From positions 1 to 56,641 of the forward strand of contig SGZB01000003.1 of NCBI GenBank assembly GCA_004321735.1: 56,641 nt of DNA, given 5' to 3'. The stretch is from Flavobacteriales bacterium (GTDB lineage Bacteria > Bacteroidota > Bacteroidia > Flavobacteriales > Flavobacteriaceae). The notes under the pieces were generated by a model. It did not search any database, had not been told where the DNA came from, and worked only from the letters and a program-made list of their open reading frames with translations. The translations under genes were made by a program, and so were the position numbers. Each line of letters opens with the position of its first letter. The stretch's first letter is position 1. This document shows positions 25,694 to 48,462 of this stretch, one piece after another.

Positions 25694-26641
25694 ATGGTTA
25701 GATATTTTTGTCTATTTTTTTTCTTTTTTGGCTTCTCTCAAGAAAGTACTTTTAAAGATTATAATCAAAAAATAGCAGGTATTGATTTTAACCTCGAAAT
25801 GGTTGCAATACCCTCTGGAACTTTTAAAATGGGAAGTCCAAACTTTGAAAAAAATAGACTTGCAGATGAGGGGCCTGTTCATGAAGTTTATATTGATTCT
25901 TTTTGGATTGGAAAGTTTGAAATAACCTGGGATTTATATCAGCTTTTTATGCAAAGAGAAATAGATTCAAAAAAAATTAAATACGGAGATGAGATTAATG
26001 TTGATGTTGATGCTGTTACTAGTGCTACAACACCATATGTTGATATGACATTTGGAATGGGTTCAAATGAATATCCTGCTATTTCAATGACTCAATTAGC
26101 TGCATCTAAATTTTGTGAATGGCTTTCAGCAATGACGGGAAATTATTATAGATTGCCAACTGAAGCTGAGTGGGAATATGCCTGCAGAGCAGGAAGTGAA
26201 AGTGCTTATGGTTTTGGTAATGACGTGAATGAATTAGCAGACTATGCTTGGTATGATTATAATAGTGGAGGCAAGTATCAAAAAGTTGGTTCAAAAAAAC
26301 CAAATAATTGGGGATTACATGATATGCATGGAAACGTAGCTGAATGGACACTCGATCAATATAGCCCTAGAAGTTATTATTCTTATGTAAATCAAATAGC
26401 TGATAATCCTTACAATAAAGCACAAAAGCTATATCCAAGAGTAGTAAGAGGTGGTTCGTGGATGAGTAGTGATTATAGATTAAGAAGTTCTAGTAGAACA
26501 CCATCAAATAAAAATTGGAAAAAACAAGATCCCCAAATTCCTAAAAGTAGATGGTGGCATACGGATGCTCAATTTTTAGGTTTTAGAATTGTAAGACCTT
26601 ACAAAGTTCCAGAAAATTATAAAGATTTCTGGATACAATAA
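25694..26641 (+). CDS. FGE-sulfatase-domain protein lacking the catalytic cysteines
   Basis: A 315-residue exported protein (signal VRYFCLFFFFFGFSQ) of the SUMF1/FGE fold: MVAIPSGTFKMGSP near 36, YRLPTEAEWEYACRAGSE near 155, GLHDMHGNVAEWTLDQY near 208 and RVVRGGSWMSSDYRLRSSSR near 252. Where true FGE has Cys-x4-Cys, this protein has Ser-Ser-Asp-Tyr-Arg, so it should not make formylglycine. Such copies are common beside DUF1501/DUF1553 genes and may bind ligands or act as another non-haem metal enzyme. Contrast with the cysteine-bearing FGE at 17483-18502. Confidence 0.82.
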   Translation: MVRYFCLFFFFFGFSQESTFKDYNQKIAGIDFNLEMVAIPSGTFKMGSPNFEKNRLADEGPVHEVYIDSFWIGKFEITWDLYQLFMQREIDSKKIKYGDEINVDVDAVTSATTPYVDMTFGMGSNEYPAISMTQLAASKFCEWLSAMTGNYYRLPTEAEWEYACRAGSESAYGFGNDVNELADYAWYDYNSGGKYQKVGSKKPNNWGLHDMHGNVAEWTLDQYSPRSYYSYVNQIADNPYNKAQKLYPRVVRGGSWMSSDYRLRSSSRTPSNKNWKKQDPQIPKSRWWHTDAQFLGFRIVRPYKVPENYKDFWIQ

Positions 26642-26660
26642 TAATTACTAAATTGATGAG

Positions 26661-27569
26661 GTGAAAAGACGTGGTTTTATTAATACTATTGCTGCAACTA
26701 CTTCCCTAGCAGTATTTCCGAAAACTCAATACATAGGAGATTTATTTGAAAATAAATTTAATTTGAATTATGCACCTCACTTTGGAATGTTTCAAAATAT
26801 GGCAGGTGAAGATTTGATTGATCAATTAAACTTTATTGCAGATAATGGTTTTAAAGCTTTTGAGGATAATGGCATGAAAAATAGATCCATTTCAATGCAA
26901 GAAAAAATTGGATCCACCCTTAACAAAAGAAATATGAGTATGGGTGTTTTTGTAGCTCACAAAATTTATTGGAATGAACCAAATCTTGCTAGTAGTAATA
27001 AGAACAAAAGAGAAGAATTTTTAAAACATATTACAGAGTCTGTTGATGTTGCTAAAAGAGTGAATGCAAAGTGGATGACAGTAGTTCCAGGACATAAAGA
27101 TTTAAGACTAAACTTGTCCTATCAAGAATCAAATGTTATTGATACTTTAAAATTTGCATGTGATATTTTAGAAAAACATAATCTTGTTATGGTTTTGGAG
27201 CCTTTAAACTTTAGGGATCACCCAGGGCTTTTATTAACAGAAAGTCCTCAAGCTTACAGAATATGTAAGGCTGTAAATTCTAAATCATGTAAAATATTGT
27301 TTGATATTTATCATCAACAAATACAAGAGGGTAACTTAATTCCTAATATTGAAAAATGTTGGTCCGAGATTGAATATTTTCAAATTGGTGATAACCCTGG
27401 AAGAAAAGAGCCTACAACTGGCGAAATCAATTATAAAAATGTATTTAAATATATCTACGAAAAAGGATATAAAGGAATTTTAGGAATGGAACATGGTAAT
27501 TCAATTTCTGGAATACGTGGTGAGAAAAAACTTATAACTTCCTACCAAGAGGTAGATAACTTTAATTAA
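26661..27569 (+). CDS. Tat-exported TIM-barrel sugar isomerase/epimerase-like protein
   Basis: A 302-residue AP-endonuclease-2-type TIM-barrel protein related to hydroxypyruvate isomerase and sugar-phosphate isomerase/epimerases. The GTG at 26661 is the only workable start (an ATG 5 bp upstream meets a stop at once). The N-terminus KRRGFINTIAATTSLAVF is twin-arginine-like. Metal-ligand candidates are seen in VLEPLNFRDHPG near 175, FDIYHQQIQEG near 214, FQIGDNPGRKEPTTGEINY near 240 and GMEHGNS near 278. With Gfo/Idh/MocA partners it would isomerise or epimerise a keto sugar; the substrate is not known. Confidence 0.82.
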   Translation: MKRRGFINTIAATTSLAVFPKTQYIGDLFENKFNLNYAPHFGMFQNMAGEDLIDQLNFIADNGFKAFEDNGMKNRSISMQEKIGSTLNKRNMSMGVFVAHKIYWNEPNLASSNKNKREEFLKHITESVDVAKRVNAKWMTVVPGHKDLRLNLSYQESNVIDTLKFACDILEKHNLVMVLEPLNFRDHPGLLLTESPQAYRICKAVNSKSCKILFDIYHQQIQEGNLIPNIEKCWSEIEYFQIGDNPGRKEPTTGEINYKNVFKYIYEKGYKGILGMEHGNSISGIRGEKKLITSYQEVDNFN

Positions 27570-27577
27570 CAACTATT

Positions 27578-28876
27578 ATGAAAAACATTAAAAGAAGATC
27601 ATTTATTAAGAACACGTCAATAATAACTGGTGGTTTAGTTCTACCATCATTTTCATTGAAGAAAAATAAAATTGATTACAGTAAAAAATTAAAGATTGCA
27701 GTTGTTGGATGCGGAGGAAGAGGAACTGGTGCTGCTGTAGAAGCATTAAGAGCAGATAAAAATGTAGAATTAATTGCAATGTGCGATGCTTTTAAAGACA
27801 GGTTAGAAGGAAGTTTAAAATCAATTCAAGAAGAACTTGATGGAGAAATTCAAGTAGAGGTAAAAGAAAAAAATAAATTTGTTGGATTTGATGGATATAA
27901 GAAAGCTATTGATAAAGCTGATGTAGTTATACTAGCAACACCTCCGGGGTTTAGACCACAACATTTTAAATATGCTGTAGAAAATGATAAGCATGTTTTC
28001 ATGGAAAAACCTGTTGCAACTGATGCTAATGGCGTTAGACAAGTTTTAGAAACTGCAAAACTTGTTAAAGAGAAAAAACTAAATGTAGTTGTTGGTTTAC
28101 AAAGAAGATATCAACCATGTTATCTTGATTTTATGAAACAAGTTAAACGTGGAATTGTAGGGAAAATAACTTCTGGTACTGTAAGATGGAATAGTTCAGG
28201 TGTTTGGGTTAGAGCTAGAAAACCTGAACAAACTGAGCTTGAATATCAAATGAGGAATTGGTATTATTTTAACTGGCTATGTGGAGATCATATTGTAGAA
28301 CAACATATTCACAATTTGGATGTTGCAAACTGGTTTTTAAACGAATATCCAATTTCTGCCCAAGGAATGGGTGGAAGAGAGGTAAGAAAAGGAATCGACC
28401 ATGGTGAAATCTTTGATCATCATTATGTTGAATATAAATATGCAAGTGGAGCTGTGATACACAGCCAATGTAGACATCAACCAGGCACCCATAGCCAAGT
28501 AAATGAGACTTTAGTTGGAACTAAGGGAGTATTGAATTTGACCAATAGTGGTGTTATTACGATAAATGATCATGATGGAAACATAATGCATCAGTATGAT
28601 CCAAAAAATGACGAGAGTCCATACCAAATTGAACACAACAAATTATTTAATTCTATAAGGACAGGTGGGCAAATTGATGATACAGAATACGGAGCCAAAG
28701 CAACAATGACTGCAATAATGGGAAGAATGGCAACATACTCAGGCAAGGTAGTAAAATGGGATGATGCTATTAATGATCAAAATATTTTGGTTCCTGAAAA
28801 TCTAACCTGGAATAGTGAAGCGCCAGTAAATCCAGACGAAAATGGATTTTACAAGGTTGCTGTCCCTGGAAAATAA
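27578..28876 (+). CDS. Tat-exported Gfo/Idh/MocA-family oxidoreductase
   Basis: A 432-residue NAD(P)-dependent oxidoreductase. After a twin-arginine-type leader (KRRSFIKNTSIITGG) comes the Rossmann motif AVVGCGGRGTGAAVEAL (residues about 40-56), then ILATPPGFRPQH, the catalytic-Lys EKP motif in FMEKPVATDANG near 145, and a C-terminal domain with DHIVEQHIHNLDVANWF near 238. Family members oxidise or reduce sugars and inositols. Export by Tat would allow folding with the cofactor bound before transport. Part of the long operon with 8-bp spacing on either side or less. Confidence 0.88.
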   Translation: MKNIKRRSFIKNTSIITGGLVLPSFSLKKNKIDYSKKLKIAVVGCGGRGTGAAVEALRADKNVELIAMCDAFKDRLEGSLKSIQEELDGEIQVEVKEKNKFVGFDGYKKAIDKADVVILATPPGFRPQHFKYAVENDKHVFMEKPVATDANGVRQVLETAKLVKEKKLNVVVGLQRRYQPCYLDFMKQVKRGIVGKITSGTVRWNSSGVWVRARKPEQTELEYQMRNWYYFNWLCGDHIVEQHIHNLDVANWFLNEYPISAQGMGGREVRKGIDHGEIFDHHYVEYKYASGAVIHSQCRHQPGTHSQVNETLVGTKGVLNLTNSGVITINDHDGNIMHQYDPKNDESPYQIEHNKLFNSIRTGGQIDDTEYGAKATMTAIMGRMATYSGKVVKWDDAINDQNILVPENLTWNSEAPVNPDENGFYKVAVPGK

Positions 28877-28882
28877 TTTTTA

Positions 28883-29812
28883 ATGAATCATAGATTTTTT
28901 AATCCATTATTACTTTTTATCATTTTAATTTCATGTAATAATGTTAGTGATAATGATTTAAATGATTTAAATGATTTAAATGATGAAGTAATAACATTTC
29001 CAAGAGAATTTAATATATCTCACAATTCATTAAATAGAAAATATATTTTTTATAAGTCAAAAAATTTAGCTGAAAACTCCCCTTTAGTTTTTGTTCTTCA
29101 TGGATACACCAGCAATTCTTCTAATATTATGAACTATTCTAAAATGAATAGTATAGCAGAAGAAAATGGTTTTGCTGTTTGTTACCCTCAAGGAACCAAC
29201 AATTCATTGACCGGAGCATCGCATTGGAACGCAAATTTAAAACCCATGAGTTCTGTTGAAGACTCTAGCTTTTTAACTGAATTAGCTAAGCACCTTCAAG
29301 ATGAATATGATTTAAGTATCGAAAATACTTTTGCGTGTGGTATGTCTAATGGAGGTTTTATGAGTTACACCCTAGCTTGTGAACAAAGCGAAACTTTTAA
29401 AGCCATTGCATCAATTACAGGGACAATGAGCGGTTATGATTGGCAAAATTGTAATCCAAACCATAAGATACCTGTGCTACAAATTTCAGGAAGCAATGAT
29501 AGAACAGTTCCTATGGATGGCTCGATGTCTCCCACTTGGGGTTGGGGAGGAGCACCAGATATAGAAAATATAATTGACTACTGGTCCGAAATCAATGAAT
29601 GTTCAAATTCAAAGATTATTAATTTACCCGATATTAGTAGTCAAGACAATTCTTTTGTAACACTAAACAAAAGATTTAATTTAGAATCAAAAGATAGAGT
29701 TAGACTATATACAGTTCACGGTGGTGGACATGATTGGCCAGGTGCTTGGGGAAATATGGATATTGATGCTAGTGAAGAAATTTGGGATTTTTTTAGTAAA
29801 CACTTAAAATAG
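28883..29812 (+). CDS. Lipoprotein PHB-depolymerase/CE1-like esterase
   Basis: A 309-residue lipoprotein esterase of the LpqC/polyhydroxybutyrate-depolymerase-like family. The signal ends LLFIILISC (Cys18), then a low-complexity linker of three Asn-Asp-Leu repeats. Triad candidates: Ser in ACGMSNGGFMSY near 153, Asp in SGSNDRTVP near 206, His in HGGGHDWPGAW near 287; oxyanion segment VFVLHGYTSNSS near 70. The family includes feruloyl and acetyl-xylan esterases. It probably removes ester groups at the cell surface. Confidence 0.82.
   Translation: MNHRFFNPLLLFIILISCNNVSDNDLNDLNDLNDEVITFPREFNISHNSLNRKYIFYKSKNLAENSPLVFVLHGYTSNSSNIMNYSKMNSIAEENGFAVCYPQGTNNSLTGASHWNANLKPMSSVEDSSFLTELAKHLQDEYDLSIENTFACGMSNGGFMSYTLACEQSETFKAIASITGTMSGYDWQNCNPNHKIPVLQISGSNDRTVPMDGSMSPTWGWGGAPDIENIIDYWSEINECSNSKIINLPDISSQDNSFVTLNKRFNLESKDRVRLYTVHGGGHDWPGAWGNMDIDASEEIWDFFSKHLK
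28952..28984 (+). repeat. Short tandem repeat, 9-bp unit x3
   Basis: The 9-mer GATTTAAAT is repeated three times (28955-28981) and followed by GAT, encoding an Asn-Asp-Leu linker just after the lipobox of the esterase. Unit length is a multiple of three, so copy changes alter linker length without a frameshift. Confidence 0.8.
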
Positions 29813-29817
29813 AATAA

Positions 29818-31197
29818 ATGAAAAATTATAACAGAAGAGGTTTTTTACAAACATCAACTCTAGGCGCTATGGCAGCATCTACATTGAGTGTAAATTGTCA
29901 AAATAATTTAAACTCAAACAGAGATGGAATATACATGGGAGATTTCTCTGAAAAACCAAATAATAATATTAGAGCTGCATTTATTGGAATAAATAGAGGA
30001 AGTACACACCTCAAAAATTTTGCTACTCTTCCTGGGACGGAAGTTGTTGCTTTGTGTGACTTATATGAAGACATTGTTGAGAGAGAGTATGGCAAATTAA
30101 AAACTTACACTGATAAGTTAGATAATCTAAAAAAATATTGGGGTGATGAAAATAAATGGAAACTAATGCTTGATGAAGTTAAACCTGATGTAGTTTTTAT
30201 AAGTTCAAATTGGAACAGTCATGCTCCAATGGCTATTGAATCAATGAAAAAAGGAGCTCATGCCTTTGTCGAAGTACCTTTGGCTGTTACGCTTGAAGAA
30301 ATGTGGGATATTGTAAATACATCTGAAAAAACAAAAAAGCATTGCATGATGATGGAGAATGTTAATTATGGACGAGATGAATTACTTTTTTTAAACATGT
30401 GCCGAAAAGGTCTTGTTGGTGAACTCCTTCATGCAGAGGCAGCTTACATACATGAACTGAGATGGCAAATGTATAATGAAGAAAGAGGAACAGGATCGTG
30501 GAGAACATTGCACTATGCCAATGGAAAAGGTAATCTTTATCCAACTCATGGTCTTGGACCTGTCGCACAGTATATGAATTTAGCTAGAGGTGAAGATAAT
30601 TTTAAAACTTTGGTTTCATTTTCTTCTCCTGCACTAGGAAGAAATATATACTCAAAAAAGAATTTTGATGAAAATCACAAATGGAATAAGCTAGATTTTT
30701 CTAATGGGGACATGAATACTTCCATTTTAAAAACGGTTCTTGGAAGAACAGTAATGGTTCAGTGGGACGAAACTAGTCCAAGACCCTACTCTAGACTAAA
30801 TCTAATTCAAGGAACGTTAGGAACACTTGCTGGATTTCCAACGAGAGTTGCTTTAGAAAATGGATTTAAGGATATAACAAAAGATCATCATTCATGGATA
30901 CAAGGTGAAAATTTACAAAAGATATATGATGAATATGATCATCCTTTGTATAAAAGATTGAATGCAAAAACCAAAAAATCAGGACATGGTGGTATGGATG
31001 GTATTATGATGTACAGAATTGTAGAGTGTTTACAGAAAGGTCTTCCTCTTGATCAAAACGTTTATGAAGGTTGTTTTTGGAGTGCAGTAACACCATTGAG
31101 TGGAAATTCTATTGAAAATGAAGGAGCTCCACAACAATTTCCGGATTTTACCAGAGGTGAATGGAAAAAAACTAAAGAATTAGGAATCGTTTTATAA
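29818..31197 (+). CDS. GH109-like NAD-dependent glycosidase (Gfo/Idh/MocA fold), Tat-exported
   Basis: A 459-residue protein with a twin-arginine signal (NRRGFLQTSTLGAMAAST) and a lipobox-like VNC. It is a Gfo/Idh/MocA fold but matches glycoside hydrolase family 109 (alpha-N-acetylgalactosaminidase) along its length: AAFIGINRGSTHLKNF, ENVNYGRDELLFLNM, AYIHELRWQ, the block GNLYPTHGLGPVAQYMN near 245, KSGHGGMDGIMMYRIVECL near 395, and QQFPDFTRGEW at the end. GH109 enzymes keep NAD+ bound and cleave through a transient 3-keto sugar. Substrate could be GalNAc or another alpha-glycoside. It ends the operon. Confidence 0.82.
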   Translation: MKNYNRRGFLQTSTLGAMAASTLSVNCQNNLNSNRDGIYMGDFSEKPNNNIRAAFIGINRGSTHLKNFATLPGTEVVALCDLYEDIVEREYGKLKTYTDKLDNLKKYWGDENKWKLMLDEVKPDVVFISSNWNSHAPMAIESMKKGAHAFVEVPLAVTLEEMWDIVNTSEKTKKHCMMMENVNYGRDELLFLNMCRKGLVGELLHAEAAYIHELRWQMYNEERGTGSWRTLHYANGKGNLYPTHGLGPVAQYMNLARGEDNFKTLVSFSSPALGRNIYSKKNFDENHKWNKLDFSNGDMNTSILKTVLGRTVMVQWDETSPRPYSRLNLIQGTLGTLAGFPTRVALENGFKDITKDHHSWIQGENLQKIYDEYDHPLYKRLNAKTKKSGHGGMDGIMMYRIVECLQKGLPLDQNVYEGCFWSAVTPLSGNSIENEGAPQQFPDFTRGEWKKTKELGIVL

Positions 31198-31198
31198 A

Positions 31199-31227
31199 AT
31201 AAAAAAAGCTCCCCTTTAGGAAAGCTT
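31199..31227 (-). terminator. Rho-independent terminator of the 31.2-kb small RNA
   Basis: On the minus strand AAGCTTTCC pairs with GGGGAGCTT (nine pairs, two of them G-U) around a TAAA loop, followed at once by T7. On the plus strand no T tract follows, so it does not stop the upstream operon; this polarity is the key argument for a minus-strand RNA. Confidence 0.75.
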
Positions 31228-31275
31228 CTCATTGGTTTCTACAAACCCCTTGGTAAAGTACCAAGGTTACACAAC
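31201..31275 (-). ncRNA. Candidate structured small RNA, about 75 nt
   Basis: No ORF occupies this 129-bp gap. The minus strand holds three successive perfect or near-perfect hairpins: an 8-bp stem with a 3-nt loop (31248-31266), an abutting 5-bp stem with a 4-nt loop (31234-31247), and the 9-bp terminator stem (31206-31227) with a T7 tail. A TAnnTTTG promoter box (TACATTTG) sits at 31280-31287, the right distance upstream. Flanking genes are both on the plus strand. I recognise no known RNA family; it lacks SRP-RNA or tmRNA hallmarks. Confidence 0.6.
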
Positions 31276-31279
31276 GGGA

Positions 31280-31287
31280 CAAATGTA
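31280..31287 (-). promoter_or_regulatory. -7 promoter box of the candidate small RNA
   Basis: TACATTTG on the minus strand matches TAnnTTTG exactly and is identical to the box in front of the tRNA-Gly/tRNA-Leu pair. No protein-coding gene on the minus strand starts behind it. The -33 element is weak. Confidence 0.5.
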
Positions 31288-31326
31288 GTTATTTTATTTA
31301 CATTACTAAAATTTGAATTTTATAAG

Positions 31327-32246: not shown

Positions 32247-32606
32247 TTATTCCTTAATAAAATGCCCATTGATAATTATATCAAAAGTACAGTTTGAAGA
32301 ATCATAGCATCTCATATCTATAGATGTATACTTTTCCAAATGTGCTGCACCAGGATTTCCAACTTGAGATCCTCCAGTACGAGTGTTACCTGACCAGCTA
32401 GAGAAAATATAACCATCAGAAGGTTTAGCTTTAACATGTGCTATATCTCCCCATTCATATTCACCAGTAGTTAATTCAGTGGTTTCAAGGGTTACAGTTC
32501 CTCCCTCAGATGGAATGGCATTAGTAGTTACAGTAAAGATTCTTGTTTCTTCTTGCTTGCTACAAGAAATAAGTACAATTACAATTAAGAAAAGTAGTTT
32601 TTTCAT
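32247..32606 (-). CDS. Small lipoprotein with InlB B-repeat-like domain (copy 1)
   Basis: A 119-residue lipoprotein (signal KKLLFLIVIVLISC, Cys15). The body resembles one divergent InlB B-repeat unit: SEGGTVTLETTELTTGEYEWGD, VKAKPSDGYIFSSWSGN. It is paralogous to the protein at 33368-33742: both share EETRTF/EETRIF, P-x-EGGTV, GEY-WGD, a Gly-Y-x-F segment, and end in a CxFDI/CVYDI-NG-F-K motif. Likely a surface-exposed small domain; function unknown. Directly abuts the DUF6090-like gene, which overlaps its start. Confidence 0.7.
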   Translation of the reverse strand: MKKLLFLIVIVLISCSKQEETRIFTVTTNAIPSEGGTVTLETTELTTGEYEWGDIAHVKAKPSDGYIFSSWSGNTRTGGSQVGNPGAAHLEKYTSIDMRCYDSSNCTFDIIINGHFIKE

Positions 32607-33346
32607 TAACTCTTTTTTAACTCCTCAACAGACAATGATTTCGCTGTTTCATATGATTTTTTAATATCACTTAGTAAGCGCATATACATATTTGAATAAT
32701 ATTGAGCTTGAGACAATAAACCGTAAAAATCACTTGACATGTAATAATCCCTATTAAAATCAAATGTATTGACTGTTCTTGAACCATAAAATTCGCCATC
32801 GTATGAATTGTAGCTGAATCTAACTCTGAATTTTTTTAAAATTTCTCCTCTTTTGGATATGTTCCACTGATCAATTTCTGTAGATGTAGCGTAGTTCCTA
32901 TCTTTCTGATGATTGAACATTTCTAGTAGTAACTTTTTTAACTCATTATTTTTAATTAATTCAAAAGTTCCTGTAGATATTAATTGTTCAAAAATCCCAT
33001 CTTTTGGAAAAAATGAAATACCAACCTCAATATCTAGTATAGTTTTAATTGCTTCAAGATCCGTAAGATTTTTATGATTTAGATCTATATCATTTAATAT
33101 TTCTAATATATTTTTTTCAGAATCTTGTAAGATTTTTAGTAGATTATCAATTTGAATTAAATCTTCATCAAGACTAATAATCAAATCGCTCACAAGGTCA
33201 TTTTTTGTCAATATATCTTCTTTATTTTTTCTAACATCTTCAAAAAAGAAAGAAATAAAAATGCTTAATATTATTACAAAGCTTTGTAAAAAATATTTCA
33301 GATTATTTTTTATGATATTAGTTTTTGAAATTTGAGAATCAGCCAT
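32606..33346 (-). CDS. DUF6090-like membrane-anchored protein
   Basis: A 246-residue protein with one transmembrane helix near the N-terminus (about residues 17-30, FLQSFVIILSIFISFFFE) and a long helical extracytoplasmic part with coiled-coil-like Leu/Ile spacing. The leader plus a helical DLIISLDEDLIQID region and the GTFELIKNNELKKLLLEMF segment resemble the flavobacterial DUF6090 family, which has no known function. It lies between two paralogous lipoproteins and shares a base with the first. Confidence 0.6.
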   Translation of the reverse strand: MADSQISKTNIIKNNLKYFLQSFVIILSIFISFFFEDVRKNKEDILTKNDLVSDLIISLDEDLIQIDNLLKILQDSEKNILEILNDIDLNHKNLTDLEAIKTILDIEVGISFFPKDGIFEQLISTGTFELIKNNELKKLLLEMFNHQKDRNYATSTEIDQWNISKRGEILKKFRVRFSYNSYDGEFYGSRTVNTFDFNRDYYMSSDFYGLLSQAQYYSNMYMRLLSDIKKSYETAKSLSVEELKKS

Positions 33347-33367
33347 CAGCAGTAAATCATTACTTTA

Positions 33368-33742
33368 CTAGTCTTTCTTAACAAAATTTCCAGTAACATT
33401 AATATCATACACGCAAAATGTAGGATCAGGACAACTCATTCCTAATGATGTGTAACCCATTCTTAATTTATCTGCTCCATTTCCTGTTGTTACAATTAAA
33501 TCACCTAAGTAAATATTTCCAGAAAATTTTTCAAAATTATAACCAGGGGATGCTATAGCTTTTATGCTTACTACGTCACCCCAAAGATATTCACCTTGAG
33601 TTTCGTCAGTAAGTTCAATTGTAACTGTACCTCCTTCCGGGGGAGAGGCAGACAAATATAATTTAAATGTCCTTGTTTCTTCCGGATACTTCATACATGA
33701 AGTCAGCATCAAAACAAACAGTAAGAAGAAAACCTTTTTCAT
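33368..33742 (-). CDS. Small lipoprotein with InlB B-repeat-like domain (copy 2)
   Basis: A 124-residue lipoprotein (signal KKVFFLLFVLMLTSC, Cys16) with a B-repeat-like domain (PPEGGTVTIELTDETQGEYL, WGDVVSIKA, GYNFEKFSGN). Paralogue of the gene at 32247-32606; the pair flanks the DUF6090-like gene, so the three probably arose through a tandem duplication and act together. It begins just after the terminator of tRNA-Asp on the same strand. Function unknown. Confidence 0.7.
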   Translation of the reverse strand: MKKVFFLLFVLMLTSCMKYPEETRTFKLYLSASPPEGGTVTIELTDETQGEYLWGDVVSIKAIASPGYNFEKFSGNIYLGDLIVTTGNGADKLRMGYTSLGMSCPDPTFCVYDINVTGNFVKKD

Positions 33743-33789: not shown

Positions 33790-33798
33790 AAATTTAAG

Positions 33799-33872
33799 CG
33801 GTCTGGACGGGACTCGAACCCGCGACCCCATGCGTGACAGGCATGTATTCTAACCAGCTGAACTACCAGACC
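33799..33872 (-). tRNA. tRNA-Asp (GTC)
   Basis: 74-nt cloverleaf on the minus strand: acceptor GGTCTGG / CCAGACC with discriminator G73, D-arm GTTCAGCTGGTTAGAA, anticodon arm ATGCC-TGTCACG-CAT with anticodon GTC, and T-arm GCGGGTTCGAGTCCCGT. CCA is not encoded. Confidence 0.97.
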
Positions 33873-33886
33873 TATAATTAGAAGTG

Positions 33887-33894
33887 CAAATATA
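33887..33894 (-). promoter_or_regulatory. Promoter -7 box of tRNA-Asp
   Basis: TATATTTG on the minus strand matches TAnnTTTG, 14 bp before the tRNA 5' end and between it and the trxA stop. Confidence 0.5.
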
Positions 33895-33908: not shown

Positions 33909-34226
33909 TTATAAAAGAGCGTCAATATATTCTGAATAAACATTTTTTTGAGAAACGCCTACTTGTCTATTTACTAACTCTCCATCTTTAAAAATTAAAA
34001 CAGTAGGAATATTTCTAACTCCATACTGAGCTGCAAATTGTTGATTACTATCAACATCAACTTTTCCAATAATTGCCTTACCATCATAATCAGAACTTAA
34101 TTCTTCAATGATTGGACCCAACATTCTACATGGACCACACCATTCTGCCCAAAAATCTACTAAGACTGGCTTGTCAGATTTCAGAACTATTTCTTGGAAA
34201 TTTGCATCAGTTATTTGTAGTGCCAT
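33909..34226 (-). CDS. trxA: Thioredoxin
   Basis: A 105-residue cytoplasmic thioredoxin, the standard length. Active site WCGPC sits at residues 29-33 (FWAEWCGPCRMLGP), the buried Asp at 23 (VLVDFWAE), and the cis-Pro in RNIPTVLIFKDG near 74. It supplies reducing equivalents to ribonucleotide reductase and other enzymes. A TAnnTTTG box lies 17 bp upstream, so it probably has its own promoter downstream of dnaE. Confidence 0.97.
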   Translation of the reverse strand: MALQITDANFQEIVLKSDKPVLVDFWAEWCGPCRMLGPIIEELSSDYDGKAIIGKVDVDSNQQFAAQYGVRNIPTVLIFKDGELVNRQVGVSQKNVYSEYIDALL

Positions 34227-34265: not shown

Positions 34266-37200
34266 CTAATTTAATCTATATTCTAATTTTTTTTCTTTGA
34301 GACTTCTAAGCAATTGTTCATCAATTTTTATCTTATACTTATTAGAATTTAAATTAACTTTTAACCCATCTTCATTTCCATAAATGTTAAGAACAAGTTC
34401 TTGGTCACCTTTATGATTTTTAAAAATTTGTTTAAAAAACTTAATGTGATCTTCCTCAATTAAATCCACTTCTAGCTTTACTGACAGTCTCTTTGCAGTT
34501 GTTGATAAACTATCTTGAAGTTGATTGAAATTTAAAAACTGTAACCTAGGATCTCCAACTCTTCCAGTTTCATTATTTTTCCAACCTTCTTTTACATACA
34601 TTTTAATGTAAACAAAATTATTTTCTTCCAGGTAATGTTTAAACTTTAAATATTCTTCACCAAAGATTCTCATTTCATAAGATTCTTGATAGTCCTCAAT
34701 TACAAATGTTGCCCATCCTTTACCATTTTTAGAAATTTTGTGTTGAACTTCACCAATTATTCCACCAATCCTTAATTCTTTGTCAATAAACATTCTTAAA
34801 TCTCTTAAATCAGATAGCCTAATATTGGAAAGATAAGATAGGGTGTCTTTAAAATCATCTAATGGATGGCCTGAAATATATATACCAACTACCTCTTTTT
34901 CTTTTTTAAGTTCATCTAATTTAGACCACGGATTACATTCAGGAAATTCAGGTTCTTTAATTCTAACTTCAAGTGCATCACCGAAAAGGCTTGCCTGTGA
35001 TGAATTTTGACGTTCTTGAAATTTTGATCCAAAACGAATTGCCTTTTCAATAAATGATTGCCCATCTTCTAACTCATAAAAATATTGAGCTCTATGGGTT
35101 TTAGAATTCATTAAATCAAATGCTCCAGCTAAAACTAAACTATCAAAGGCTTTCTTGTTAGCAGATCTTAAATCAACTCTTTTTGAAAAATCAAAAATCG
35201 AATCATATCTCTTTTCTTGACGAGAATTAATAATAGCTTCTACTGCACTTCTACCCACACCCTTTACTGCACCCATTCCAAAGCGGATTGCACCCTTGTC
35301 ATTTACTGTAAATTTATAGAACGATTCATTAATATCAGGCCCTAATACTTCAATACCCATTTGTTTACATTCTTCCATGAAAAAACTTACTTGTTTTATA
35401 TCGTTCATGTTGTTGGAAAGAACAGCAGCCATATATTCAGCTGGATAGTGGGCTTTTAGATAAGCAGTTTGGTAAGCGATATAGGCATAACATGTTGAAT
35501 GAGATTTATTAAAAGCATATGAAGCGAATGCTTCCCAATCTTTCCATACTTTTTCTAAAACTTCGTGACTAAATCCATTAGAATTTCCTCCTTCAAAAAA
35601 TTTTGGTTTGAGTTTTTCAAGCAAAGAGAATATTTTTTTTCCCATAGCTTTTCTCAGAAGATCTGCATCACCTTTTGAAAAATTAGCAAGCTTTTGTGAA
35701 AGCTGCATTACTTGTTCCTGATACACTGTGATACCATATGTTTCTTTTAGATACTCTTCCATTTCGGGAATATCATATGTAATATTTTCTAATCCATTTT
35801 TTCTCCTAACAAAAGAAGGAATGTATTCAAGCGGCCCTGGTCTATACAAAGCATTCATTGCGATAAGATCTTCAAAAACTGTAGGTTTTAAATCACGTAG
35901 ATATTTTTGCATACCTAAACTTTCATACTGAAAAATTCCAATTGTTTGACCTTTTTGAAACAACTCGTAAGTTTTTTTATCATCTAGGGAAATATTTTCA
36001 ATGTCAATATCTTTTCCATGAATATATTTAATCAACTTTATCGTGTCTTTAATCAAGGTTAAAGTCTTAAGTCCAAGAAAATCCATTTTCAAAAGTCCTG
36101 CATTTTCTACAACTGAATTATCGTATTGGGTTACATATAATGCAGAATCTTTAGCAGTTGCAATTGGAACAAAATTGGTAATATCGTCAGGAGTTATAAT
36201 TACACCACATGCATGAACTCCAACGTTTCTTAAACTACCTTCAAGTACTCTAGCCTGATTTATTGTTTCTGCTTGTAAATCATCACCATTAGAAAGTTTT
36301 TTGAGCTCCATTGCATTCGAATAATCATCAGATCTTAGTTCTGAACTAAGCTTTTTTTCGTCCTTATTAAAAATCTCATTCAATTTTACTGTATTTGGAA
36401 CTAGCTTAGCTAAAAAATCTGCGTCAGAAAGAGATAAATCTAAAACTCTTGCAGTATCTCTAAGAGATGATTTGGCAGCCATTTTTCCGTAAGTAATTAT
36501 TTGAGCTACTTGTTTTGAACCATACTTTTCAATAACATAATCTATAACCTTACCCCTTCCTTCATCATCAAAATCAATATCAATATCTGGCATACTGACC
36601 CTGTCAGGGTTTAAAAATCTCTCAAAAAGAAGGTCATATTTGATTGGATCAACCTTAGTTATACTTAAGCAATATGCAACTACAGATCCAGCAACAGATC
36701 CTCTGCCTGGACCAACAGAAACACCCATCTTTCTAGCAGCATTTATCAAATCTTGGACTATTAAGAAATAGCCTGGATATCCAGAATTTTTTATCACTTG
36801 AAGCTCAAAATCTATTCTTTCAAGTAGATCATTAGTTAAATCTTTGTAATGAAATTTGGCCCCCCCTAGCGTTAAATGTTTTAAATAATCATTCTCTAAA
36901 TCATCTGAATCAGTTTGGAAATCTTCTGGAATATCAAATTTTGGTAGCAGAACATCTCTTTGTAATTCAAATTCTTCAACTTTATCTACGATTTCTGAAA
37001 TATTTAAAATTGACTGGGGAATATCTGAAAATAGTTCAACCATTTGCTCTGGAGATTTGAAATAATACTCTTGATTTTCCAATCCATATCTAAAATTTCT
37101 ACCTTTTCCAATTGGGGTGGATTGTTTTTCTCCATCTTTAACGCACAACAAAATATCATGCGCATTAGCATCTTCTTTGTCTAAATAAAGAGTGCTGTTA

Positions 37201-38585
37201 GTTGCAACAACTTTAATATTAAACTCCTTGCTAAATTTTAATAGTTGAACATTTACAATTTCATTTTGCTCTTCAGAGTGTCTGTTTAGTTCTAAATAAA
37301 AATCTTCACCAAATTTATCTTGCCACCATCTTAGTGCTTCAATTGCTTGTTTTTCACCAATATTTAATATTTTATTTGGAATTTCCCCGTACTTATTTCC
37401 AGAAAGAACAATAAGCCCTTCGCTAAACTCTAAAACTACTTCTTTATCAACTCTAGGAACATAGTAAAATCCGTCCGTGTAACCAACAGAACACATCTTT
37501 ATTAAATTTTGATAACCAATTTTATTTTTAACCAAGAATACAACTTGGTATCCATCATCCCTACTTGATTTATCCTTATGGTCCTCACAAACATTTAATT
37601 CACAACCAATAATTGGTTTGATATGACGATCAGCATTTTTTGGATCACTATTGTAGTTTTTAACAGCTCTGTAAAAATGAAAACATCCCATCATATTTGC
37701 CTTGTCTGTCAAAGCAACTGCTCTCATTCCAAATTCAGAAGATTTTTTTACAATTTCAGAAATTTTAGAGGTTGATTGAAGAACTGAAAATTGTGAGTTA
37801 TTATGAAGATGACAAAAATTAGACTCTAATTTTTTAGAGTTTATGTCACTTTCACTTTTAATTTCAATTTCTTGGTTATTAGAATTTTTTAATTTTTTTG
37901 ATTCTTCTTTAAGATTTAAGTGCTCTACCCCGTACAAGTCAACTTTAGATGAATAAGTTGAGTTAAGTGAATCATGAAGTTCATTAAAATCAATAAAATC
38001 AGTTTCGTTAAAGTTTTTAATTCTAACTAATTCAAAAAAAGATCTTGCTGTTGCTTCAACATCTGCAGATGCATTGTGAGCATTTTGAAAATCAGCACTA
38101 AACAAGTGCTGATACAGTTCAATTAATGTTGGAAATTTAAACTTTCCAGATCTTCCACCTGCAATTTTACATAAGCTTGCAGTTTTTTCAGTACATGTGT
38201 CTAAAACCGTTTTATCTTTTAAAGTATCTTCTAGATTTGATCTGTAAAGTTCGGCTCTAATAATATTTAGATCAAATTTTAAATTATGTCCTATTATGTA
38301 TTTTGTTTTATTTAAATCATTTAAAAAGGAATTCAAAACATCATCTAACTCAAGACCTATTTGTTTACTAAGCTCAGTAGATATTCCATGTATTTTCTCA
38401 GACTCAAAGGGAATATCAAAATCATTAGCTTTTATCAAACAACTGGAATCAGAAATAATTTTTCCATTATTATCATGGAGTTGCCAGGCCAGCTGTACAC
38501 AACGTGGCCAGTTGTCAGTATCTGTTATTGGAGCGTTCCATTTTTTTGGTAAACCTGTTGTTTCTGTATCAAAAATTAAATACAT
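34266..38585 (-). CDS. dnaE: DNA polymerase III alpha subunit with fused N-terminal DEDDh exonuclease
   Basis: A 1439-residue replicative polymerase. Residues 1-190 are an epsilon-type 3'-5' exonuclease: ExoI YLIFDTETTGLP (Asp6, Glu8), ExoII IGHNLKFDLNII near 94, ExoIII HNASADVEATA near 170. DnaE proper begins near 255 with the PHP domain (FCHLHNNSQFSVLQ) and holds catalytic acids in DIDIDFDDEGRG near 668 and the GPGRGSVAGSVVAYCL loop near 625. Finger, helix-hairpin-helix and OB-fold regions follow to the C-terminus. PHP metal ligands look partly changed, so proofreading is expected from the fused domain. This fused form occurs in other Flavobacteria. Confidence 0.95.
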   Translation of the reverse strand: MYLIFDTETTGLPKKWNAPITDTDNWPRCVQLAWQLHDNNGKIISDSSCLIKANDFDIPFESEKIHGISTELSKQIGLELDDVLNSFLNDLNKTKYIIGHNLKFDLNIIRAELYRSNLEDTLKDKTVLDTCTEKTASLCKIAGGRSGKFKFPTLIELYQHLFSADFQNAHNASADVEATARSFFELVRIKNFNETDFIDFNELHDSLNSTYSSKVDLYGVEHLNLKEESKKLKNSNNQEIEIKSESDINSKKLESNFCHLHNNSQFSVLQSTSKISEIVKKSSEFGMRAVALTDKANMMGCFHFYRAVKNYNSDPKNADRHIKPIIGCELNVCEDHKDKSSRDDGYQVVFLVKNKIGYQNLIKMCSVGYTDGFYYVPRVDKEVVLEFSEGLIVLSGNKYGEIPNKILNIGEKQAIEALRWWQDKFGEDFYLELNRHSEEQNEIVNVQLLKFSKEFNIKVVATNSTLYLDKEDANAHDILLCVKDGEKQSTPIGKGRNFRYGLENQEYYFKSPEQMVELFSDIPQSILNISEIVDKVEEFELQRDVLLPKFDIPEDFQTDSDDLENDYLKHLTLGGAKFHYKDLTNDLLERIDFELQVIKNSGYPGYFLIVQDLINAARKMGVSVGPGRGSVAGSVVAYCLSITKVDPIKYDLLFERFLNPDRVSMPDIDIDFDDEGRGKVIDYVIEKYGSKQVAQIITYGKMAAKSSLRDTARVLDLSLSDADFLAKLVPNTVKLNEIFNKDEKKLSSELRSDDYSNAMELKKLSNGDDLQAETINQARVLEGSLRNVGVHACGVIITPDDITNFVPIATAKDSALYVTQYDNSVVENAGLLKMDFLGLKTLTLIKDTIKLIKYIHGKDIDIENISLDDKKTYELFQKGQTIGIFQYESLGMQKYLRDLKPTVFEDLIAMNALYRPGPLEYIPSFVRRKNGLENITYDIPEMEEYLKETYGITVYQEQVMQLSQKLANFSKGDADLLRKAMGKKIFSLLEKLKPKFFEGGNSNGFSHEVLEKVWKDWEAFASYAFNKSHSTCYAYIAYQTAYLKAHYPAEYMAAVLSNNMNDIKQVSFFMEECKQMGIEVLGPDINESFYKFTVNDKGAIRFGMGAVKGVGRSAVEAIINSRQEKRYDSIFDFSKRVDLRSANKKAFDSLVLAGAFDLMNSKTHRAQYFYELEDGQSFIEKAIRFGSKFQERQNSSQASLFGDALEVRIKEPEFPECNPWSKLDELKKEKEVVGIYISGHPLDDFKDTLSYLSNIRLSDLRDLRMFIDKELRIGGIIGEVQHKISKNGKGWATFVIEDYQESYEMRIFGEEYLKFKHYLEENNFVYIKMYVKEGWKNNETGRVGDPRLQFLNFNQLQDSLSTTAKRLSVKLEVDLIEEDHIKFFKQIFKNHKGDQELVLNIYGNEDGLKVNLNSNKYKIKIDEQLLRSLKEKKLEYRLN

Positions 38586-48454: not shown

Positions 48455-48462
48455 CAAATGTA
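48455..48462 (-). promoter_or_regulatory. Promoter -7 box of the tRNA-Gly/tRNA-Leu pair
   Basis: TACATTTG on the minus strand matches TAnnTTTG, 12 bp before tRNA-Gly. The same 8-mer precedes the candidate small RNA at 31.2 kb. Confidence 0.5.

Follow-up and report, generated by a model that had tools for sequence, protein, structure and literature searches.

The 129-bp gap at 31198-31326 of the window, by which we mean the whole 56,641-nucleotide stretch analysed here (Flavobacteriales bacterium, GCA_004321735.1, contig SGZB01000003.1, positions 1-56,641), separates two plus-strand genes, and it raises the question whether its minus strand encodes a small RNA of its own and, if so, what such an RNA might do. 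An initial annotation of this DNA had described in the gap a TAnnTTTG box, two abutting hairpins, a terminator stem and a run of seven Ts, and all of these elements were found where it had placed them (Table 1). Read along the minus strand, their order is the TACATTTG box, a 4-nt gap, GUUGUG, the two hairpins, AAUGAGAAGCUUUCC, the terminator and T7. The terminator stem has 12 bp in the computed fold, in which A-U and G-U pairs are counted, versus 9 bp in the earlier count. The minus-strand segment 31275-31199 folds with -29.2 kcal/mol (z -4.56), and none of 200 shuffled sequences folded as well, whereas the plus strand folds less well (z -1.95) and is matched by 7 of 200 shuffles.

Table 1. 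Features of the predicted RNA gene and of its surroundings in the window (R1, covariance model built from 21 sequences).
Feature	Position	Strand	Basis or remark
Predicted small RNA gene, about 75 nt, GUUGUG...UUUUUUU	31201..31275	-	Fold z -4.56; R1 match 31219-31275, 48.2 bits
Sigma-A-type -7 box TACATTTG (TAnnTTTG)	31280..31287	-	Ends 4 nt before the RNA
5' unpaired conserved motif GUUGUGU; GUUGUGUUG in most relatives	31269..31275	-	Letter counts in relatives, a sample mostly picked by the same letters; also 20/20 in the model-only sample
Hairpin 1, 8 bp and 3-nt loop; letters free, pairing kept family-wide	31248..31266	-	Fold, covariation
Hairpin 2, GGUUU-GUAG-AAACC, 5 bp and 4-nt loop; abuts hairpin 1	31234..31247	-	Fold, covariation
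Conserved AAUGAGAAGCUUUCC; terminator left arm from 31230 on	31219..31233	-	Fold, relatives
Intrinsic terminator stem-loop	31203..31230	-	Fold and terminator scan; U tract (T7) 31207-31201
ORFs between tRNA-Asp and RNA	32247..33742	-	Two related short Flg_new_2 ORFs flank an ORF without Pfam match
tRNA-Asp (gtc)	33798..33872	-	About 2.5 kb from the RNA; usual upstream partner elsewhere
trxA	33909..34226	-	Named from sequence, without family search
dnaE	34266-38585		Named from sequence, without family search; with trxA marks the usual locus

A leader or riboswitch calls for a same-strand gene right downstream of the RNA, and none is present here: the long ORFs at 25694-31197 are all on the plus strand, and the one minus-strand ORF within this region (81 aa) lies inside a plus-strand gene; the RNA itself is predicted to stop at its terminator. 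What is expected of an independent, intrinsically terminated sRNA was found, namely a box at 4 nt, an intrinsic terminator and a conserved structure. We therefore predict from the DNA that 31275-31201 of the minus strand is a self-contained, terminated RNA gene with its own promoter box.

The initial annotation had also connected the RNA with the GH109-like gene at one end of the gap, placing the T tract at the end of that gene. The T tract does lie only 3 bp from the GH109 stop codon, but there is no overlap between the RNA and the coding sequence. The RNA may locally affect the 3' end of the GH109-like mRNA. That it serves the GH109-like operon as a local terminator or as an antisense element is, however, very improbable. 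The GH109-like neighbour is kept in all 11 loci examined in the window genus, but it is present at none of five other family loci; loci elsewhere in the family have other neighbours, usually tRNA-Asp, and the terminator scan found the stem with the T tract on the minus strand only. Because the RNA is conserved in genomes in which it has other neighbours, we consider this explanation largely refuted.

As previously noted for this DNA, the 8-mer TACATTTG also precedes tRNA-Gly of the tRNA-Gly/Leu pair, at 48455-48462. The box alone is uninformative, since TAnnTTTG occurs 81 times in the window versus 100 expected by chance and so shows no enrichment; only the conservation of its position elsewhere gives it weight. 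The combination TAnnTTTG-N4-GTTGTG was found once versus 0.01 expected, for a pattern picked after the site was seen. The main support for an RNA gene is comparative and does not come from the box itself.

Conservation of the RNA in Flavobacteriaceae

Within the window genus, BLAST with a 106-nt segment gave strong matches (E<1e-17) in 11 of 23 genomes, the own genome counted, and R1 matched 17 of the 23 at E<=0.05, the genomes with matches having an estimated completeness of just 55-87%. The TAnnTTTG box ends 4 nt before an in-register GTTGTG in 17/17 copies of the genus (the 11 BLAST copies, one of which has an N in this gap, five further copies and L268). At L268, it is TATTTTTG that ends 4 nt before a GTTGTG in register with the sister copies. 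A sub-branch of five genomes (G008, G021, G010, G013 and G007; L269-L273) has a shorter RNA with one hairpin, in which the spacing of the box and the conserved ends are unchanged. L268, from G009, probably resembles this sub-branch. A second, weak match in G008 (L274) lacks GTTGTG and was taken as chance.

Beyond the genus, searches with R1 under stricter filters, which lose weak matches, gave matches at E<=0.01 in 237 of 299 Flavobacteriaceae genomes, mostly a single match per genome, and in 207 of the 248 family genomes of good quality. Under the same filters, 39 of 246 genomes matched in the search of the order, of which 38 belong to the family and one is a weak match outside it (E 0.0084), and all 18 matching genomes among 198 in the search of the phylum lie within the family. 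No R1 match was obtained in 62 of the 299 family genomes, two of which (G042 and G332) were nevertheless positive by an exact pattern derived from the two conserved ends. This pattern matched 51 of the 299 genomes; its matches include about five that by eye look like tuf coding sequence, and a reverse-read control gave two. A scan of named genomes with the pattern matched at least 118 stretches, chance matches in other phyla included; among the matches listed are Flavobacterium, Myroides, Aquimarina, Dokdonia, Kordia, Mesonia, Salinimicrobium, Psychroserpens and Winogradskyella, and a MAG labelled Flavobacteria bacterium MS024-2A. Judged by these matches, the RNA is nearly family-wide in Flavobacteriaceae, a larger range than first described. 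The matches in other phyla, among those listed, mostly lack a T tract and were taken as chance. Three contigs, all from MAGs, that are labelled Candidatus Nitrotoga, Rhizobium and Chryseobacterium gleum (L095, L114 and L121) carry a Flavobacterium-type RNA with tRNA-Asp upstream, and are probably mis-binned.

The initial annotation had made its proposal depend on conservation of the stems outside this genome, and the stems proved to be both conserved and covarying. In single-sequence folds, which need no alignment, both hairpins recur with different letters in most copies, and the short-type copies fold into one composite hairpin. Across 101 distinct aligned rows, the covariation score was 0.398 versus 0.139 for shuffled rows, none of 500 shuffles reaching 0.398, and structures with slid partners scored at most 0.114; for 20 matches found by the model only, the score was 0.424 versus 0.109 (0/500), both alignments, the 20-row check set included, being fitted to the model. 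Each pair of hairpin 1 occurs in all six standard pair types in the 101 rows. Moreover, G-U exceeds A-C in both helices (51:20 in hairpin 1 and 54:17 in hairpin 2), and it is therefore the RNA-sense strand that is favoured as the folded molecule.

The conserved unpaired ends are more telling than the hairpins. Most of the letters in the larger sample were counted in sequences obtained by a search with the same letters, and the 20 model-only matches are the fairer sample, even if R1 itself also favours the letters of the conserved ends in that sample. None of the nine positions of GTTGTGTTG varies in these 20 sequences, and their tail has the form AUGRRARGCUU, mostly followed by UCC. The conserved ends, the family-wide range and the linkage described below are what our analysis adds to the initial annotation. 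The possibility that AUGARAAGC opens a small ORF was rejected, because the frame is shifted, as judged by eye, by terminator loops that vary in length.

Linkage to tRNA-Asp and position of the promoter box

In 89 of 122 distinct loci, tRNA-Asp(GUC) lies at most 200 nt upstream of the RNA on the same strand, at a distance of 9-132 nt in 88 loci and of 165 nt for the weak second match of L157. Most of the 122 loci came from the pattern, and the 20 model-only matches are therefore the fairer test; 17 of them have tRNA-Asp just upstream. Wherever the fetched loci reach far enough, the usual order, by eye, is dnaE-trxA-(clpP)-DUF58-tRNA-Asp-RNA, with DUF58 and ClpP of the relatives assigned by Pfam. 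The window keeps dnaE-trxA-tRNA-Asp, followed by three same-strand ORFs and one opposite-strand ORF before the RNA, and its tRNA-Asp has its own TATATTTG box (33887-33894) and is followed by a separate hairpin (by eye) with a T tract. A position as tRNA trailer thus fits the relatives, for which we infer co-transcription, and not the window itself.

The spacers between tRNA-Asp and the RNA bear on this co-transcription. Most of 67 spacers of 36-75 nt (61 distinct) can be folded into a terminator-like hairpin. Among the 57 distinct spacers with a tract of at least five Ts, 49 have at least three clamp pairs, in which bases past the T tract pair with bases before the stem, versus a mean of 19.2 when the sequence behind the T tract was shuffled in 20 rounds, counts that are not independent, since many of the 57 come from related Flavobacterium species. 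The clamps differ among species (TTGGG/CCCAA in 16, TGGGG/CCCCA in 5, ATTGC/GCAAT in 4, AAGAGG/CCTCTT in 3, and others, such as ATTGAG/CTCAAT). Such a clamp can be formed only in read-through transcripts, and we therefore count it in favour of read-through from tRNA-Asp.

The promoter box shows the complementary distribution. It was counted in 120 rows, leaving out L056:2043-2105 (24.3 bits) and L157:870-911 (21.7 bits), whose 5' ends were not located. None of the 88 copies linked to tRNA-Asp has TAnnTTTG in the 25 nt upstream, versus 15 of the 32 unlinked copies, and in all 15 the box ends 4 nt (13 rows) or 5 nt (2 rows) before GTTGTG. The window genus accounts for ten of these rows; five more (L012 and L063 of one genus, L147, L015 and L044) lie outside it as far as known, L015 bearing the box even though tRNA-Asp is found 334 nt upstream. 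Among three unlinked copies of the check set, L292 and L293 have the box at 4 nt, and L294 lacks both the box and tRNA-Asp. The remaining 17 of the 32 unlinked rows, in which no box ends 4-5 nt before GTTGTG, are of several kinds: for L031, the upstream sequence available is just 4 nt long; in five copies of the short type, a box lies 41-58 nt upstream instead; six rows are preceded by a tRNA-Asp-like 3' fragment; and five (L013, L052, L072, L139 and L186) do not clearly fit any of these classes.

In Flavobacterium psychrophilum, the sigma-A -7 box is placed at -12 to -5 in the description given by Guerin et al. (2021, PMC9723704). With a gap of 4 nt, +1 would therefore be the G of GUUGUG. Hence, in detached copies with this gap, transcription would be expected to begin right at the conserved 5' end, and the same end in linked copies would have to come from processing.

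The frequent linkage could also mean that the RNA is a 3' module of the tRNA-Asp transcript with a cis role in its termination, 3' maturation or stability, and with no trans role. The counts of 89/122 and 17/20 are what such a module would produce, as are the direct repeats around islands, described below, that cover both the RNA and the 3' end of the tRNA. We nevertheless consider it unlikely, because the tRNA-Asp of the window has its own hairpin and T tract with the RNA about 2.5 kb away, because the box is kept at 4 nt in all 17 copies found in the genus, and because it is found at 4-5 nt in five other genera as well (G026/G299, G030, G236, G169 and G023; in G030 with tRNA-Asp 334 nt upstream).

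In addition, three loci (L126, L134 and L167) share, by eye, a longer upstream sequence (..CACAAATCGTCAACA..) whose end resembles the 3' half of tRNA-Asp, with a TAnnTTTG-like box further up. In L126, this sequence includes CAACACAA, the reverse complement of UUGUGUUG. The shared sequence may be a diverged tRNA-like RNA.

Possible mode of action and published RNAs

Taking up the gene-like layout, structure, conservation, tRNA-Asp linkage, promoter geometry and duplication with islands observed in the sequences, we favour, with moderate confidence, the reading that the RNA is a trans-acting small RNA that derives ancestrally from the tRNA-Asp transcript, the window holding a free-standing copy of this family-wide RNA with its own promoter. 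In most species, read-through from the tRNA-Asp promoter would produce a transcript from which the RNA is then cut out; in the window, transcription would start at GUUGUG from the RNA's own promoter and end at the T tract. A trans role is suggested because the RNA survives with its own box in a genus in which tRNA-Asp no longer precedes it. The RNA would act most likely by base pairing via the nearly invariant GUUGUG(UUG) and AAUGRRARGCUUUCC, with the two hairpins as a scaffold whose letters hardly matter. The same contrast between two nearly invariant segments and drifting hairpin letters would be seen if the RNA were a sponge or scaffold, in which the hairpins bring GUUGUGUUG and AAUGRRARGC together for an RNA-binding protein. 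Conserved segments are, however, equally expected of a pairing seed, and we regard protein binding as somewhat unlikely.

Possible targets were searched for in the own genome with the reverse complement of the tail and up to two mismatches. This gave eight places, the RNA locus included, of which none is convincing as a target; a rough control, with the pattern read backwards, gave one match. Of the other seven places, three lie in the sense of an ORF, and one of these three (L299) is 32 nt downstream of a possible start codon.

In the sea, in soil and in fresh water, Flavobacteriaceae belong to the major degraders, and little is known about RNA regulation in them. A small RNA that is nearly family-wide, covaries strongly and is not recognised by Rfam would be a core component that can be approached in common laboratory species, and its linkage to tRNA-Asp may couple its output to the translation machinery.

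As to known RNAs, the initial annotation had recognised no family, and in agreement with this, Rfam 15 at gathering score returned only tRNAs for the window and 20 relatives. Scans by E-value at low threshold with three members listed only RNAs of unrelated kinds, all well below threshold. Flavo-1 is among the Rfam families, and it was absent from these lists for the three members scanned. Like the RNA described here, it is a structured RNA motif of Flavobacteriaceae (Weinberg 2010, as named in PMC9723704).

The nearest published candidate, compared by its description, is Rfp18 of F. psychrophilum, an independent sRNA whose deletion lowers the mRNAs of two metalloproteases in stationary phase (Guerin et al. 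2021, PMC9723704). It comes from the same bacterial family, has at least three stem-loops, is conserved in its genus and has a predicted pairing region in the third stem-loop. In contrast, the description we drew on reports an effect on metalloprotease mRNAs and wide conservation within the genus, with no mention there of tRNA-Asp (PMC9723704). If Rfp18 is this RNA, then part of the story is already known, and what is new would be the family range, the link with tRNA-Asp and the islands. Apart from this possible identity, none of the literature titles and abstract starts searched describes the RNA, which is no proof of absence.

A further comparison is with the E. coli sRNA sponge 3'ETS-leuZ, a fragment about 50 nt long. 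It lies in the 3' spacer of a tRNA transcript, as the RNA described here would in most relatives; 3'ETS-leuZ is described as a spacer fragment (PMC7154689), whereas the RNA of Flavobacteriaceae has several hairpins, its own terminator and, in the window genus, its own promoter box.

Genomic islands and multiple copies

Some genomes carry more than one copy of the RNA, and for 13 of these multi-copy genomes the stretches concerned were fetched. In four (G124, G352, G056 and G173), a full tRNA-Asp and RNA are followed by cargo, a 16-27-nt 3' fragment of tRNA-Asp and another RNA copy; G301 has the same layout with a 16-nt fragment. On a contig of G143, a full tRNA-Asp is lacking, but there are four tRNA-Asp fragments (15-18 nt), of which three precede an RNA copy. 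The island ends of G301 and G124 form direct repeats (164 identical bp, and 202 bp with one mismatch, respectively) that span from the 3' part of the tRNA to just beyond the RNA terminator. In G173 and G352, hairpin 1 is not identical between the RNA copies, which would fit an incoming element that supplied its own version. Islands do not account for all multi-copy cases, however, since G178 has two full tRNA-Asp-RNA units in tandem, the copies in G339 and G321 are closely spaced, and later copies in G101 and G279 lack a clear tRNA fragment before them.

Tyrosine integrases (PF00589, PF13102 and PF17293) lie 0.15-0.85 kb from a copy in L241, L245 and L031 (G301, G124 and G029). All three matching IMG/VR contigs also carry an integrase, right behind the RNA in L303, at about 1 kb in L304 and at 6.6 kb in L305; L303 has an intact tRNA-Asp and RNA before the integrase, and in L305 a tRNA fragment precedes the RNA. 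One query of phage records gave no match.

Copies that flank islands, with integrases close by and on every matching IMG/VR contig, might suggest that the sequence is part of the attachment site of elements that integrate at tRNA-Asp, conserved for integration and not as an RNA. Such a site would hardly be present in 237 of 299 family genomes, mostly as a single match, with the positions of promoter box and terminator conserved and with G-U exceeding A-C in its helices. Furthermore, the repeats extend into tRNA-Asp at its 3' end, and the 3' end of a tRNA is the usual kind of core for such integration. We therefore hold this explanation to be improbable.

The islands can be read together with the favoured explanation of a trans-acting RNA, the elements carrying the RNA so as to keep the tRNA-Asp-RNA unit whole. 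A plausible, if tentative, account is that tRNA-Asp and the RNA are a core two-gene unit, that islands carry the tRNA 3' end with the whole sRNA and its terminator so that both products stay intact, and that detached copies decay or gain a promoter at the processed 5' end, as in the lineage of the window. That islands apparently bring a spare copy suggests that cells cannot easily dispense with the RNA.

Two further observations concern the content of these regions. In L246 (G143) and L247 (G279), four and five copies of the RNA, respectively, form arrays with intervals of about 1.0-3.4 kb, with cargo that by eye is mostly secreted or lipoprotein-like and with no obvious integrase in the stretch. 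In L303, the order is DUF58, tRNA-Asp, RNA, integrase and a type I restriction-modification methylase (N6_Mtase, HsdM_N), which is possibly a defence island at the tRNA-Asp-RNA site.
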